Source: an uncultured Aquiluna sp. (GTDB taxonomy: Bacteria; Actinomycetota; Actinomycetes; Actinomycetales; Microbacteriaceae). Taken from it: a stretch of DNA of 38,832 nucleotides. The position numbers were made by a program, and so were the translations under genes. Below are positions 32,301 to 38,212 of the stretch, in pieces. Location: NCBI GenBank assembly GCA_913057795.1, contig CAJXOD010000011.1, positions 1-38,832 of the forward strand. The letters are read 5' to 3'. Numbering within the stretch: position 1 is the first letter of the stretch; every line of letters starts with the position of its first letter. The notes under the pieces were generated by a model. That model saw only the letters and a program-made list of their open reading frames with translations, made no database searches and was not told where the DNA came from.

Positions 32301-33326
32301 ATGAAGAGTCCTTTGGTAAAAATCACTGCTGCGGATTATCACACCGCTGGCGAGCCATTTCGAATCGTGAGTGTTGGGCTTCCTTCCATCACAGGAGCGA
32401 TGGTTCTGGATAAGCGAGCAGGGGCTCCCTCGAACCAGGAACTTGAACAAATTAGAAAGCTTCTTGTCAATGAACCCCGGGGACATGCGGATATGTATGG
32501 CGGGTTTATCGTGGAGCCAAACGATGATGGCGCTGATTTTGGTGTGCTGTTCTGGCACGGCGATGGTTATTCAACTGCTTGTGGGCACGGCACCATTGCG
32601 CTGGGTGCTTGGGCCGTAGACACTGAGTTAGTCGCGGTAGAGCCGAATGGCGAAACGGCAGTCACAATCGATGTTCCGTCTGGCAGGGTGCAGGCTCTGG
32701 TGACCCAAGAAAACGGCATTACAACAAAGATTTCCTTTAAGAACGTGTTTTCCCATGCAATCGCCGAGGCAGTGCCAGTAGCTCTGGATGATGGCAGGAC
32801 CGTCTTGGTGGACATTAGTTACGGGGGTGCCAACTACGCAAGTATTGATGCGAGCAAGCTTGGCCTATCGGTAGAACCCCAGCATTTAGATGAGCTAATT
32901 CGCATCGGCAGACAGATCAAATGGAAGTTGAACGAGGCCCCAGAATCTAATTCGCAGGTCGATGAGCGCCTAAACGGCATTTACGGAACCATTATTTTTG
33001 ATGAGATCAATTCAACTGAGTCCGAGCTTCATCAAAGAAATGTAACCATTTACGCCGATGGCCGGGTTGATAGATCTCCTTGTGGTTCTGGAACCGCAGC
33101 GAGGATTGCTCAGCTGGCTCATTCCGGCAAGCTAACTAAGTCAATGACCCTAATTCACGACTCAATCATCGGAACCAGGTTCTTAGGTCGCATCGAAGAA
33201 ACCCAAACCCACGGCCAAAAATCTGGGGTTATCCCGATGATTACTGGAAACGCCTTCCATGCTGCCAATTCAGAGTTTTTGCTATTTGAAAACGATGAAT
33301 TGGACACAGGGTTCTCACTTCGATGA
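32301..33326 (+). CDS. Proline racemase family enzyme (4-hydroxyproline epimerase-like)
   Basis: The 341-aa protein belongs to the proline racemase superfamily, which includes proline racemase, 4-hydroxyproline 2-epimerase and trans-3-hydroxyproline dehydratase. Both catalytic cysteines are present: Cys94 in YSTACGHGTIALG and Cys261 in DRSPCGSGTAARIA. The dehydratases typically have Thr at the second position, so a racemase/epimerase is favoured. HTAGEPFR at 14-21 is the typical N-terminal substrate loop. Its stop overlaps the ATG of the next gene, an ornithine-cyclodeaminase family reductase, by 4 nt; such pairs handle hydroxyproline or proline via pyrroline-2-carboxylate. Confidence 0.88.
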   Translation: MKSPLVKITAADYHTAGEPFRIVSVGLPSITGAMVLDKRAGAPSNQELEQIRKLLVNEPRGHADMYGGFIVEPNDDGADFGVLFWHGDGYSTACGHGTIALGAWAVDTELVAVEPNGETAVTIDVPSGRVQALVTQENGITTKISFKNVFSHAIAEAVPVALDDGRTVLVDISYGGANYASIDASKLGLSVEPQHLDELIRIGRQIKWKLNEAPESNSQVDERLNGIYGTIIFDEINSTESELHQRNVTIYADGRVDRSPCGSGTAARIAQLAHSGKLTKSMTLIHDSIIGTRFLGRIEETQTHGQKSGVIPMITGNAFHAANSEFLLFENDELDTGFSLR

Positions 33327-34255
33327 GCGCTATAAGCCCAGCTAAGTGGATAAGTGACCAAGAGCTATTCGTAAAGTTCGGCTATCGGAAGGCAATCGAA
33401 GCAATAAGCCATGCTTTGACCGGAGGGTTTGACCCTGCAACTGATAAACCCCGCTCATTTGTCGAATTTGCCTCTGGCCAGGGGCTTGTGATGCCGAGCG
33501 AGAATGCCGAGTTTGTAGGGCTGAAGTTCGTCACCGTGGCACCCAAGAACCCGGCTAAAGACATTCCCAGAATCCAAGGCATCTACACGCTATTTGATGC
33601 CAAAACTCTCACTCCTCTCGCCCAGTGTGATGGCGCCGCCCTAACGCTTCTCAGGACTTCCTGCGTCACAGCCGCCATGGTTCAAAAGCTAGATTTGCCA
33701 GAAAATCCAAAGCTGGTTGTTTTTGGGTCTGGGCCGCAGGCCTTTGCCCACATTCTTGCAATTTCGGCAGTGTCGACGCCGAGTGGAATTCGCATATTAG
33801 CTAGGAACACCTCCGGGGTTGAGAAGCTGATTGTCGAGCTCAGGTCCCATGGCATCGAAGCTGCTGCCGGTTCAACCAAGGACCTTGCGGAGGCGGACCT
33901 TGTCATTACTGCAACCACAGCAAGAGAGCCCCTGTTCGCCGCAGAGCAAGTTCAGAAGACCGCAATCGTTGCGGCGATTGGTTCTCACGAACCAAACGCT
34001 AGAGAACTACCCGGAAACCTCATGGGTATTGGAACGGTTTTCATCGAAGATCAATCAGCTGCTCTTAGAGAAGCGGGTGATGTCATCATGGCAATCAACG
34101 AAGGCTTCGTTGCCGTGGAAGATCTCGTGGAGGTAAAAAAGCTGTTCACCTCTGATCAAAAGATAGACAGTCGATCCCTAAGGATTTACAAATCGTCAGG
34201 AATGCCGTGGCAGGATCTGGCAATCATTGGCGCGGCTTATAAGGCCCTGATCTAA
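33323..34255 (+). CDS. Ornithine cyclodeaminase/mu-crystallin family protein (probable pyrroline-2-carboxylate reductase)
   Basis: The 310-aa protein has the family layout: a substrate domain (FVGLKFVTVAPKNPAKDIPRIQG), then a Rossmann domain beginning LVVFGSGPQAFAHI, and DLVITATTAREPLF. Members include ornithine cyclodeaminase, alanine dehydrogenase and ketimine (pyrroline-2-carboxylate) reductase. Coupling by a 4-nt overlap to a proline-racemase family gene favours reduction of pyrroline-2-carboxylate to L-proline. Convergent with a zinc-ribbon gene 4 bp away. The exact reaction is inferred from context. Confidence 0.83.
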   Translation: MSAISPAKWISDQELFVKFGYRKAIEAISHALTGGFDPATDKPRSFVEFASGQGLVMPSENAEFVGLKFVTVAPKNPAKDIPRIQGIYTLFDAKTLTPLAQCDGAALTLLRTSCVTAAMVQKLDLPENPKLVVFGSGPQAFAHILAISAVSTPSGIRILARNTSGVEKLIVELRSHGIEAAAGSTKDLAEADLVITATTAREPLFAAEQVQKTAIVAAIGSHEPNARELPGNLMGIGTVFIEDQSAALREAGDVIMAINEGFVAVEDLVEVKKLFTSDQKIDSRSLRIYKSSGMPWQDLAIIGAAYKALI

Positions 34256-34836: not shown

Positions 34837-35760
34837 TTGAAGAACAATCTCGTGGCACTGGAGCCAAAGCAGTTTCCAGAATACGCCCAGGCAATCACCG
34901 ATGCCGGTGGTGAGGTGACTGCAATCACCCCTTCCACAAAAGCCCTTATCTGGACCGACTACTCGTCCCCGGAGGCCTTGCAGGCGATGCTTACCTCTAA
35001 CCCGCAGCTTGAGTGGGTGCAGCTGCCATTTGCTGGGGTTGATGCTTTTGGGGAGATTTTGAAAAGTCCAATTATTTTTACAAGCGCAAAGCGGTCCTAC
35101 TCTGAACCGGTCGCTGAGCATGCCCTCGCTCTTTGCTTGGCTTTGGCAAGAATCATTCCGGAGCGAGTAAGGACCAAGAGCTGGGGCAGGCAATTTGCCG
35201 ATTCTTTTTATGATGAGGATGTTTTGATTGTTGGTGGCGGCGGTATTGCCGAGGAGCTTGCGTCACTGCTTACCCCTTTTCGATCCAATGTAACCGTTTT
35301 AAGGAACAGGCCCAACGAGCCTTTTCTTGAGGGCTTCACAGGACGAGTTGTTTCGTTTGATCACTTCGATCAGGAGTTAGCGAAAGCAAAGTTTGTGATT
35401 CTGGCCTGCGCTTTGACCGAGACCACGAGGTTCTTGTTTGATGCTCGAGTCTTCGGGCTGATGCGCACGGATTCGTATCTAGTGAACATTGCAAGGGGAG
35501 AGGTTGTGAACCAAGAGGACTTGGTTCACGCTTTGAAATCAGGCAGCATTGCGGCAGCAGCAACTGATGTTACTTACCCAGAGCCACTGCCTGAAGAGCA
35601 TCCAATGTGGGAATTGGATAATTTACTCATCACCCCCCACACAGCAGACACCAAGGAGATTGTGACGAAGTTGTTTTCAGATCGACTCAGGATCAACGTG
35701 GGAGCATGGCTCACCGACAAGCCGCTTGTCGGCGTTGTCGATGCTGACCTGGGCTATTAG
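34837..35760 (+). CDS. D-isomer-specific 2-hydroxyacid dehydrogenase
   Basis: The 307-aa protein has the two-domain fold of NAD-dependent D-2-hydroxyacid dehydrogenases. Features are VQLPFAGVDAF, the nucleotide loop VLIVGGGGIAEELA, LVNIARGEVVNQEDL with the substrate Arg, TDVTYPEPLPEEHPMWELDN with the acid residue, and LLITPHTAD with the catalytic His. Substrate cannot be read. The position beside D-amino-acid and hydroxyproline enzymes suggests a 2-keto/2-hydroxy acid linked to their breakdown. TTG start; convergent with dgcA-like gene. Confidence 0.88.
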   Translation: MKNNLVALEPKQFPEYAQAITDAGGEVTAITPSTKALIWTDYSSPEALQAMLTSNPQLEWVQLPFAGVDAFGEILKSPIIFTSAKRSYSEPVAEHALALCLALARIIPERVRTKSWGRQFADSFYDEDVLIVGGGGIAEELASLLTPFRSNVTVLRNRPNEPFLEGFTGRVVSFDHFDQELAKAKFVILACALTETTRFLFDARVFGLMRTDSYLVNIARGEVVNQEDLVHALKSGSIAAAATDVTYPEPLPEEHPMWELDNLLITPHTADTKEIVTKLFSDRLRINVGAWLTDKPLVGVVDADLGY

Positions 35761-35774
35761 CTCAGTATCTTGCT

Positions 35775-36752
35775 CTAACCCCAAAGCTTCGAGGTAAAGA
35801 CTTCCACTTTTCCACCCGGAAGGTAGCTTAAGCCGTTTGGAATATCTTGAGCTATCAAAAGCGGCCCATCGATATCTACGAAGTCAGAGTGCTGGCCGAT
35901 GACATAGGCCGGAGCCATGGACAGTGAGGTGCCGGTCATGTTGCCCACCATTACCGACTTACCATCTTTTTTGGCAACCTCAACAATTTGCAAGGCTTCG
36001 GTCAGGCCACCGCATTTATCCAGCTTTATGTTTATCACCTGGAAATTCTTTGAATTGGATTCATATTCGCTGAGGTTTAGGACGCTCTCGTCCCCGCCCA
36101 AAGGAATGGGAGAAACAAAGCCGTCAAGTTCAGAGTCGCTACCGCGAGCTAGCGGCTGCTCGATCATCTTTATGCCCAGGTCGCTGAGGGCCGGAATGAA
36201 CTTTGTTAGCTGTTCAAAATGCCAGCCCTGATTTACGTCGACAACTAGATTCGCATCGGGTCTTGCCAGTCGTATCGCGGCCAACTTTTCTACCGGCTCA
36301 TAATCATCGAGCTTGATTTTCAAGTTTAAAAAATCGCTTAGCTCTTTTGCTCTTCTGGCCATCTGCTCTGCTGTGCCGATGCCTATGGTCGCAACGGTAC
36401 TAAGTTGTTTGGGTTTTAGCCCAACCAGCTCCCAGATGCTGGCATCTCTCGTCTTGCATTCCAAATCCCACATCGCAGAGTCAAGCGCGTTTCGGGCCCC
36501 ATTAGGCGGCATAAGTTCGTTGAGGTCTTGACGGGTGGCACCTTGCTCGATCCGGGGTTTTATTTCTTCAAGGTCTCTTAGCATCTTGGCTTGGTCGTCT
36601 CCCAAGTAGTAAGCGCCAACACCTTCGCCTCTGCCAATAAACCCATCTTGTTCAAGGGTCACCCAAACTGCATTTAGCTCAAGAAAGGTGTAGCCGGTGA
36701 TAACAAAGGGTGAGTGCAACGCGAAATCCTTGCGCTCAATTGTCATCCTCAT
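35775..36752 (-). CDS. Enolase-superfamily epimerase, DgcA/dipeptide epimerase type
   Basis: The 325-aa protein is a muconate-lactonising subgroup enolase. The catalytic lysines are Lys145/Lys147 in LKIKLDD and Lys243 in INIKLDKCGG. Metal ligands are Asp172 (VDVNQGW), Glu198 (IEQPL) and Asp221 (GDESV). This set matches L-Ala-D/L-Glu epimerases and the related N-acetyl-D-glutamate racemase DgcA. It overlaps the DUF1611 gene by 4 nt (ATGA), and that partner favours DgcA. A murein-peptide epimerase role remains possible. Confidence 0.82.
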   Translation of the reverse strand: MRMTIERKDFALHSPFVITGYTFLELNAVWVTLEQDGFIGRGEGVGAYYLGDDQAKMLRDLEEIKPRIEQGATRQDLNELMPPNGARNALDSAMWDLECKTRDASIWELVGLKPKQLSTVATIGIGTAEQMARRAKELSDFLNLKIKLDDYEPVEKLAAIRLARPDANLVVDVNQGWHFEQLTKFIPALSDLGIKMIEQPLARGSDSELDGFVSPIPLGGDESVLNLSEYESNSKNFQVINIKLDKCGGLTEALQIVEVAKKDGKSVMVGNMTGTSLSMAPAYVIGQHSDFVDIDGPLLIAQDIPNGLSYLPGGKVEVFTSKLWG

Positions 36753-37765
36753 TTTTGGCCCAGAAGATTATCAATCACATCGTCAAGTCCAGTGATCAAT
36801 GGGTCCATGGTCGGAAGGTCGTAGAGTGCGCTCAAATTAGTAAGGTAGGCGGCTCGCTCATGATCTGGGATTGCGCTCGTGTTTACGCTGATTCCAACGC
36901 ACCTAATTTCGGGGTTCACGCTTCGAGCAATCTCAATGGTTCGATCGATTACTGCTGGAATGCTCGGCAATTCAAAATCGGGCCAGCCCTTGATATGGGT
37001 GCGAAGTGCTTCGGTGCAAACCACAAAGGCATCTGGTTGCGAGCCCACTAGTAGACCGGTGCTTACGGATGAGTAGCCCGGGTGAAACAAGCTTCCCTGA
37101 CCCTCGATTATGTCCCAGTGATCGGGGCGATTGTCCGGAGAAATCATTTCTGCCGCACCCGAAAGAAAGTCGGCAACAACGGCATCAATCGGGATACCGC
37201 TTCCGGCAATCATGATGCCAGTTTGGCCGGAAGCGCGGAAGTCGGCATCGATGCCTCGTTCTTGCAGTCGGTTAGCGATTGCTAAGGCTGTGTACTTCTT
37301 GCCCAGTGCGCAATCGGTACCAACTGTCAGAAGTCTTTTTCCTGTTCGTTTTTTACCGGTTCCAACAGGAATGTCCTTTGGAGGCACCCGAACATCAACC
37401 AGCTTTGCCCCAGACGCGTTAGCTACCGAAACCAGCGCTGGAATATCATTCAACTTCGTGTGAACTCCCGCGACGATGTCCATGCCCGCCTGCAAGGCGG
37501 CAACCAGGGTTGGCATCCAAGCCTCTGGAATTGCACCGCCTACAGCCGATGTTCCAATGACTAGTGATTTAGCTCCGGCTTCGGCCGCACTTTTCACGCT
37601 GTGCTTAGCAAGGCCTAAATCGATCGTGCCGCCCTCGAGGCTCAGCTGGCCCATGCAGCTTTCTGGCCGCCACTTGGCAAGCCCTGCAGCGGTCTTGGCA
37701 TATATTGGCTCAGTCTCGCTGCCAATAAATAAGAGGTAGGGGGTGCGGAGCGTGATTACTGTCAA
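36749..37765 (-). CDS. DUF1611 protein, DgcN-like D-glutamate N-acetyltransferase
   Basis: The 338-aa protein belongs to DUF1611. A P-loop-like segment VGTDCALGKKYTA (residues 148-160) precedes DFRASGQTGIMIAG and EGQGSLFHPGYS, all family hallmarks. DgcN, characterised in marine bacteria and archaea, acetylates D-glutamate with acetyl-CoA, and DgcA then racemises the product to N-acetyl-L-glutamate. The start is a TTG at 37765 with GAGG 5 nt upstream. It is the first gene of the pair, coupled by ATGA to the epimerase. Confidence 0.83.
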   Translation of the reverse strand: MTVITLRTPYLLFIGSETEPIYAKTAAGLAKWRPESCMGQLSLEGGTIDLGLAKHSVKSAAEAGAKSLVIGTSAVGGAIPEAWMPTLVAALQAGMDIVAGVHTKLNDIPALVSVANASGAKLVDVRVPPKDIPVGTGKKRTGKRLLTVGTDCALGKKYTALAIANRLQERGIDADFRASGQTGIMIAGSGIPIDAVVADFLSGAAEMISPDNRPDHWDIIEGQGSLFHPGYSSVSTGLLVGSQPDAFVVCTEALRTHIKGWPDFELPSIPAVIDRTIEIARSVNPEIRCVGISVNTSAIPDHERAAYLTNLSALYDLPTMDPLITGLDDVIDNLLGQK

Positions 37766-37837
37766 TTGGTCCTCGCCGGGCTAGATATCCACATGATTCT
37801 TCACTCTAACTAGGTTTGTGGCTTGAAGTTTCGCTTC

Positions 37838-38212
37838 TTAGCTCTGCGGCAGCTGGCACTCTGGGGTGCCGCCCGGGAGTCGATGCCGATTAGCCGCAAC
37901 CAGGTAGTAAATAGGCTTTGCGATGTTTCTTACGACCGGGAGCTTTAGGAACCAGCCGGCTAGCGCCCAAACGGTTTTGGATTCGATTAGTGCTTGGGCG
38001 ATAGCCGCCGCCGCAACGAACCTGCTGCTGCTAGACACGAAGTAGACCGCCTTGGAGGTTAGCTCAGAGGTCAGACCCAAAGACTCAAGGTCTAATTTTT
38101 GGTACGGTTCGATCGGAATTTTGTTTTTGGTCATTCTGCGCAGCAGCCTGGCACTTGAGCTGCAGAAAGCGCAGTCTCCGTCGAAAATAAGAACTTGTTT
38201 AGTTGCGTCCAT
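37838..38212 (-). CDS. DCC-family thiol-disulfide oxidoreductase-like protein (DUF393)
   Basis: The 124-aa protein starts IFDGDCAFCSSSARLLRR, the DxxCxxC motif of the DUF393/DCC family, and ends with KLPVVRNIAKPIYYLVAANRHRL, the usual tail. The family is thioredoxin-like; a redox function is proposed but not proven. The ATG lies 6 nt after TAGGCT, leaderless. It is divergent from the potassium transporter gene. Confidence 0.85.
   Translation of the reverse strand: MDATKQVLIFDGDCAFCSSSARLLRRMTKNKIPIEPYQKLDLESLGLTSELTSKAVYFVSSSSRFVAAAAIAQALIESKTVWALAGWFLKLPVVRNIAKPIYYLVAANRHRLPGGTPECQLPQS

Follow-up and report, generated by a model that had tools for sequence, protein, structure and literature searches.

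The gene pair described here most closely resembles the DgcN-DgcA modules of D-glutamate catabolism, in which DgcN forms N-acetyl-D-glutamate and DgcA converts this compound into N-acetyl-L-glutamate, which leads on to arginine synthesis at ArgB or to L-glutamate. According to an ocean survey (PMC12363236), dgcN is a key gene of D-glutamate racemisation, occurs in 32 class-level clades and belongs to a pathway that takes acidic D-amino acids and the corresponding amides as substrates. Presence of dgcN outside Proteobacteria is thus not new, and the view that the route is found mainly in marine Proteobacteria and haloarchaea, put forward in a preliminary description of this locus, gives way to that wider distribution. 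In a further study, DgcN-DgcA is taken as the likely main D-glutamate route of a Shewanella (PMC10845958). As to the epimerase half, PMC5808125 gives K162 and K268 as the two catalytic lysines of YkfB and reports high activity of a Thermotoga relative on L-Ala-D/L-Phe, Tyr and His, so that the side-chain preference varies. In the literature searched, no publication was found on dgcN together with D-amino acids in actinobacteria, nor on D-glutamate in Aquiluna. The stretch of DNA analysed here, called the window, comprises 38,832 nucleotides of an uncultured Aquiluna sp. (contig C11 of a genome of 1,333,914 bases in 46 contigs, 98.77% complete). It encodes a dgcN-like and a dgcA-like gene which, with about as much doubt as confidence, are read here as a putative module that acetylates and then epimerises a D-amino acid, more likely a neutral or aromatic one than D-glutamate.

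The open reading frames of the pair occupy exactly the span 35775-37765 given in the preliminary description and overlap by four nucleotides, as was also noted there. The features on which the comparison rests are the following.

36749..37765, minus strand: dgcN-like gene (DUF1611), 338 amino acids, TTG start, K-type P-loop
37295..37321, minus strand: DgcN P-loop GTDCALGKK, residues 149-157, compared with GTDCSVGKM in crystallised DgcN-25328
36749..36752, minus strand: overlap of the dgcN stop with the dgcA start, 4 nucleotides, ATGA, common to both genes
35775..36752, minus strand: dgcA-like gene (enolase superfamily epimerase), 325 amino acids, ATG start, window-type substrate loops
36672..36710, minus strand: epimerase 20s loop, residues 15-27, PFVITGYTFLELN, from the alignment with annotated DgcA and YcjG
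36597..36626, minus strand: epimerase 50s loop EGVGAYYLGD, residues 43-52, EC[VT]PYxRY in annotated DgcA and YcjG
36312..36320, minus strand: KxK acid/base motif K145-I-K147, role assigned by family knowledge, counterpart K162 in YkfB
36024..36026, minus strand: K243, second catalytic lysine, role assigned by family knowledge, counterpart K268 in YkfB
35868..35876, minus strand: D293-x-D295 motif, also present in YcjG

The DgcN-like protein, which contains the Pfam domains DUF1611_N and DUF1611_C, matched a single NCBIfam model, DgcN (NF041892), over its full length with 465.2 bits, which is below the curated cut-off of 480 bits. Its score against DgcN-25328 (7xrj) is 344.6 bits by phmmer, and the same N-acetyltransferase ranks first in a Foldseek search with the predicted fold (46% identity, template modelling score 0.69-0.70), for which the predicted local distance difference test (pLDDT) value is only 70.7. 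The epimerase, with MR_MLE_N and MR_MLE_C, was matched best among 12 models by DgcA (NF042940; 354.7 bits, cut-off 400), followed by the dipeptide epimerase model YcjG (NF011708; 249.6 bits, cut-off 343). The earlier identification of an operon of the DgcN-DgcA kind in an actinobacterium with a small genome (1.33 Mb) is sound, but neither protein reaches its cut-off. Enterobacterial plasmids also bear a DgcN relative, which is 53% identical to 7xrj.

The distribution of the pair was followed in 22 Aquiluna genomes (13 of them of good quality), 398 Microbacteriaceae genomes and 396 Actinomycetota genomes. A dgcN-like gene is present in 11 of the 22 Aquiluna genomes and in 7 of the 13 good ones (61-100% identity, window included), and in the same 11 genomes it is adjoined by a strong epimerase match (54-100% identity for dgcA, window included). 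The order dgcN-dgcA is kept in 20/20 Microbacteriaceae loci, which confirms the conservation of the pair in this family; the pairing is therefore not a matter of chance. Within the family, 34/398 genomes match the DgcN model, 13 of them at 378-471 bits and 21 at about 143-161 bits. The 13 strong genomes are all small (0.7-1.8 Mb) and belong to the genera g1, g30 and g81; an epimerase lies beside dgcN in 12 of their 13 loci (L027-L039), and the stretch of the remaining one (L038) ends inside dgcN. No epimerase was found within the fetched stretch of the low-scoring loci L040-L056 (0/17). In the phylum sample, 61/396 genomes match the DgcN model, with the window alone above 285 bits, and the cut-off is exceeded in none of the 398 Microbacteriaceae and none of the 396 Actinomycetota genomes. 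In the best 29 phylum loci besides the window (L169-L197; from Actinomycetota of other classes than the window, in families f9, f18, f46 and f59), the epimerase is located directly upstream of the DUF1611 gene in 29/29, in reversed gene order; four of these epimerases and two of the DUF1611 proteins were scanned.

The best models and the conserved pairing speak for the ordinary D-glutamate pathway as described above. The scores of both proteins below the cut-offs speak against it, although several DgcN-linked proteobacterial relatives likewise miss the curated cut-offs. A further point on its side is that the catalytic residues and the DxD motif are intact: K145/K147, D172, E198, D221, K243 and D293/D295 are all present, and the full catalytic set named in the preliminary description does exist. 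As a diagnostic of DgcA, which it was also meant to be, this set fails, because it is equally present in YcjG of Escherichia coli, and it was ruled out as proof of DgcA since two extra Aquiluna epimerases (L067, L068) carry it as well.

These likenesses raise the alternative that the epimerase acts on murein dipeptides (L-Ala-D/L-Glu) and that the DUF1611 protein has another role in the same peptide salvage. For the predicted epimerase fold (pLDDT 87.5), the nearest solved structures are 4gfi and YcjG (1jpd), with which the DxD motif is held in common. Moreover, E. coli YcjG (L198:1931-2896) reaches 424.1 bits on the DgcA model, above the cut-off, in addition to 677 bits on its own model; the cut-off was therefore rejected as a divider between DgcA and YcjG and can, if used alone, misname dipeptide epimerases. 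The window epimerase prefers the DgcA model over that of YcjG by 105 bits and E. coli YcjG its own by 253 bits. This preference counts for little, because it is also found in the L067 epimerase (386.8 bits on the DgcA model versus 257 on that of YcjG), whose loops are YcjG-like and whose gene has no dgcN in its vicinity; this enzyme even outscores the window enzyme on the DgcA model. Both extra Aquiluna epimerases (L067:6157-7119 and L068:6316-7242) have YcjG/DgcA-like loops, with no DgcN match within the fetched stretch.

On the careful DgcA tree, the window epimerase falls into a group of 39 rows (support 99/98) that consists of enzymes with window-type and intermediate loops, as defined below. 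Left out of this group are YcjG and 4gfi, the rows of Sphingobium, Ruegeria, Vibrio and Kiloniella, including annotated DgcA, and the L067 and L068 epimerases. In keeping with the preliminary description, the epimerase hence does not cluster with YcjG, and with this grouping and the loss of YcjG-like loop residues a dipeptide epimerase is an unlikely explanation. The annotated DgcA enzymes do not form a single clade themselves, since that of Sphingobium pairs with YcjG (97/95). On the careful DgcN tree, the window protein belongs to an 18-row group (99/98) without any M-type row, and 10 M-type rows group at 93/90 with the window excluded.

The substrate loops set the window epimerase apart from its annotated counterparts. 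Annotated DgcA (Ruegeria, Vibrio, Sphingobium) and YcjG have I[SA]RGx[RK] in the 20s loop, EC[VT]PYxRY in the 50s loop and the barrel motif GCM, and hold basic loop residues in common (ISRGx[RK]T; PYxRY). In the window enzyme the counterparts are ITGYTF, EGVGAYYLGD and GNM; it differs from annotated DgcA at columns 20, 23, 46, 49 and 271, and columns 20 and 23, which are basic in annotated DgcA and YcjG, are G and F. For a wider comparison, a cross-bacterial scan was ranked by similarity to the window DgcN, its best 80 places representing 78 loci and thus near relatives only. From a table of 106 epimerase rows, 17 were dropped (16 second-tier Actinomycetota rows and L087) and 89 classified, an enzyme being called window-type if column 20 is not R, column 46 is G and column 49 is Y. 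This yielded 66 window-type rows (window included), 14 intermediate rows and 9 rows with the DgcA/YcjG pattern. The last group consists of YcjG, five DgcN-linked enzymes, the L067 and L068 epimerases of Aquiluna, and 4gfi. A basic residue stands in column 23 in 9/9 rows of the DgcA/YcjG pattern but in 0/66 window-type rows, which have F (57), W (8) or T (1) there. The DgcN partners of the window-type epimerases have K157 in their P-loop in 66/66 cases (K-type) and A153 in 64/66, and the six M-type DgcN rows have M157 and S153, 7xrj and TM1040 among them being near-copies.

Both types of DgcN can occur in one genome. Sixteen genomes chosen from the similarity-ranked list were searched whole, resulting in 31 DgcN matches, of which 30 were fetched and read and 23 placed in the tree; in L236 and L257 the P-loop motif searched for was not matched. 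M-type and K-type DgcN were found together in 4/16 genomes (Hyphomonas beringensis, Steroidobacter agaridevorans, Rudaea cellulosilytica and Novosphingobium profundi), an indication that the two types differ in function. Among 5 M-type copies, an epimerase was present in the fetched stretch for 4, with basic loops in 4/4; among 23 K-type copies, it was present for 8, with window-type loops in 5 and intermediate loops in 3. No description of the split in loops and P-loops or of both DgcN types in single genomes was found, the literature not having been searched for the split by name.

The specificity for D-glutamate proposed in the preliminary description is not upheld by these comparisons: both scores lie below the cut-offs, both proteins stand apart from DgcN-25328 and annotated DgcA, and the substrate-loop residues are replaced. 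Since neutral or aromatic residues stand where the 20s and 50s loops of annotated DgcA and YcjG are basic, a neutral or aromatic substrate is favoured. In the proposed reaction sequence, which is suggested by the names of the two families and by the mechanism with two lysines in this subgroup, the two genes would form a stand-alone operon. The DUF1611 protein would use acetyl-CoA to acetylate a D-amino acid at its amino group, with a substrate of the neutral or aromatic class more likely than D-glutamate. Subsequently, the enolase-superfamily enzyme would invert the alpha carbon by Mg-assisted proton transfer with K147 and K243. The product would be an N-acetyl-L-amino acid, and acetylation would render the flow from D to L effectively irreversible. 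The departure of the window P-loop from that of DgcN-25328 (A153, K157) might also mean that the pair uses another N-acyl group and racemises N-acyl-D-amino acids formed with a different acyl-CoA, and the relatives of the epimerase indeed include racemases of N-acylamino acids and N-succinyl amino acids; acetyl-CoA is, however, the default from the family name, and such a variant seems very improbable.

The surroundings of many related loci in other bacteria fit D-amino acids set free from peptides. Within 7 kb in 93 loci, Microbacteriaceae and the window included, the neighbour clusters (one representative of each was scanned) include a beta-lactamase-fold hydrolase (35), a TonB receptor (26), a permease-like protein without Pfam match (22), an amidohydrolase (14), a POT transporter (8) and two sets of M19 dipeptidases (8 and 7); the POT, M19, beta-lactamase-fold and amidohydrolase neighbours are those that fit such a source. 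Among the matches listed, 72 loci lie outside Microbacteriaceae. The epimerase is adjacent on the same strand in 29 of them (downstream in 26, upstream in 3) and non-adjacent on the same strand within 7 kb in 27 more (upstream in 22, downstream in 5). It lies on the opposite strand within 7 kb in 3, the stretch ends at most 1 kb after dgcN in 5, and in 8/72 no epimerase was found near dgcN. In six of the loci (L123, L124, L126, L133, L148 and L152), which belong to Woeseiaceae and other gammaproteobacterial or proteobacterial metagenome-assembled genomes, branched-chain keto acid dehydrogenase-like genes were seen by eye upstream of the pair.

Several points weigh against a neutral or aromatic substrate. 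The 20s and 50s loops set the side-chain specificity in this epimerase subgroup, and the assignment of the substrate class depends on this premise. R203 is conserved in 64/66 window-type rows and could bind an acidic side chain. The K-type of DgcN does not appear as one clade, the tree requiring two changes and the M-type support being only 93/90. The two features are also not strictly coupled: in 3/8 cases a K-type P-loop is found beside an intermediate epimerase that retains the basic 20s loop, two Peristeroidobacter copies are K-type yet exceed the DgcN cut-off (507.9 and 496.1 bits) on a branch apart, and L237 is an M-type copy under the cut-off with A153. The counts of epimerase rows and of the 16 genomes are not rates, because the rows were ranked by similarity to the window DgcN and the genomes picked from them. 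None of the neighbour clusters named above has a member in any Microbacteriaceae locus examined. Finally, the acidic D-amino acids and amides given as substrates in PMC12363236 suggest that even the known type may accept more than D-glutamate.

A link between the pair and arginine synthesis, the second physiological claim of the preliminary description, is doubtful. If the substrate is D-glutamate, ArgB could take up N-acetyl-L-glutamate in the genome of the window, where argJ and argB lie side by side (G000:C2:3840-5773), and this product would be usable without a deacetylase, which speaks for the ordinary D-glutamate pathway. However, argJ is present in 19/22 Aquiluna genomes and in 13/13 good ones whether or not the pair is present, argB exceeds its cut-off in 19/22, and the occurrence of the pair and that of the arginine genes are unlinked among the 22 genomes. 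Neither argJ nor argB was found over the cut-off in G004, G008 and G012 (64, 77 and 76% complete), all of which possess the pair, their DgcN proteins (L066, L064 and L065) standing next to each other in the tree. This may be due to incompleteness or reflect a lineage that has retained the pair but does not make arginine; the latter, if true, would speak against the arginine link. In addition, murI is present in 22/22 Aquiluna genomes, so that an exchange between D- and L-glutamate is already available. An M20 deacetylase that tracks the pair was considered and rejected, as 16/22 genomes have three M20 matches and the others one, two or four without a pattern, in a search confined to the M20 family. 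With murI, these three incomplete genomes (64-77%), the tree position, the replaced loop residues and the coexistence of M- and K-type DgcN against it, the ordinary D-glutamate pathway is possible as the function of the pair but rather doubtful.

In quick trees, 23 Microbacteriaceae rows stand together for DgcN (Shimodaira-Hasegawa-like approximate likelihood ratio test, SH-aLRT, 93) and for DgcA (96), with Halieaceae and Kordiimonadaceae close by. When DgcA was analysed in the careful tree of 54 rows, 12 Microbacteriaceae and 4 Halieaceae/Kordiimonadaceae rows formed one group (100/98) that is unseparated inside. Kinship of the pair with these marine Proteobacteria is therefore firm, but the tree supports neither one transfer in particular nor a direction of transfer.

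Further features of the locus and its counterparts are given below.

37771..37774, minus strand: GAGG, possible ribosome-binding site 5 nucleotides before the dgcN TTG, read by eye
37838..38212, minus strand: DCC1-like gene directly upstream of dgcN, context
L222:8271-8277 and L227:4330-6640: empty sites in genomes without the pair, with the neighbours of the pair side by side

A DCC1-like match was found in 12/14 Aquiluna stretches compared, pair present or not, and lies about 6 kb from TrkH in L226. Sorted by this neighbouring TrkH gene, genomes with a TrkH 73-100% identical to the query carry the pair in 11/12 cases and those with 52-55% in 0/9; one of the 22 genomes has no TrkH match. In the empty site of G003, DCC1 lies directly beside a DUF1801-like gene, and in that of G010 the order is DCC1, GH13, DUF1801, compared with DCC1, GH13, dgcN, dgcA, DUF1801 in the L066 counterpart (GH13 and DUF1801 named by eye). 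Between 34200 and 38700, a scan for promoters yielded 0 promoter-like sites (3.0 expected), and a scan for terminators 6 terminator-like sites against 6.1 expected, which is uninformative. At 34837-35760, convergent with dgcA, lies a gene of the D-2-hydroxyacid dehydrogenase family that starts with TTG, and such a gene adjoins the pair in several Aquiluna loci. At 32301-34255, a proline-racemase-family gene overlaps by 4 nucleotides an ornithine cyclodeaminase/pyrroline-carboxylate-reductase-family gene; the best model of the former is trans-3-hydroxy-L-proline dehydratase, below the cut-off. This couple is a possible hydroxyproline catabolic operon, which is found near the pair in several Aquiluna genomes.

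K-type DgcN modules occur in Proteobacteria, Bacteroidota, Acidobacteriota and Microbacteriaceae, in Proteobacteria often near genes for peptide uptake or hydrolysis. Somewhat more tentatively than for the pair itself, DgcN-DgcA may be regarded as a family of acetylate-then-epimerise modules with differing D-amino acid substrates, the K-type serving non-acidic ones, chiefly together with window-type loops. If this is true, surveys that take dgcN as a D-glutamate gene misread part of their data, and their counts need splitting; a first sort for any genome would use K or M at P-loop position 157 and the epimerase columns 20, 23, 49 and 271. For aquatic actinobacteria with streamlined genomes, the pair would suggest that D-amino acids from cell walls or peptides are used.

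In comparison with known systems, the window pair resembles the DgcN-DgcA pairs (DgcN-25328; Ruegeria sp. TM1040, Vibrio tritonius, Sphingobium yanoikuyae) in gene order, folds and catalytic residues. It differs from them in scores under both cut-offs, in a P-loop with GKK instead of GKM, in altered 20s and 50s loops and in GNM instead of GCM, and it has neither the downstream D-amino-acid transaminase of Ruegeria and Vibrio nor the symporter of S. yanoikuyae. With YcjG of E. coli (1jpd), the window epimerase has the fold, the KxK motif, the metal ligands, the K243 equivalent and the DxD motif in common; YcjG, in contrast, has no DUF1611 neighbour (tyrR, tpx, mpaA and others instead) and carries basic loop residues that are absent from the window enzyme. 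The second-tier pairs of Actinomycetota (L169-L197) likewise place a DUF1611 gene next to an enolase-superfamily epimerase, but in reversed order, with an epimerase identity of 28-37% and 232-285 bits on the DgcN model (29 fetched loci). The nearest outside relatives of the window epimerase are those of the Halieaceae/Kordiimonadaceae pairs (Pseudohaliea rubra L081, Parahaliea L084 and L090, and L083), which have window-type loops and 53-64% identity over both proteins; in the vicinity of these pairs are genes for an amidohydrolase, a permease-like protein, a TonB receptor or a beta-lactamase-fold protein, none of which was seen in Microbacteriaceae loci.

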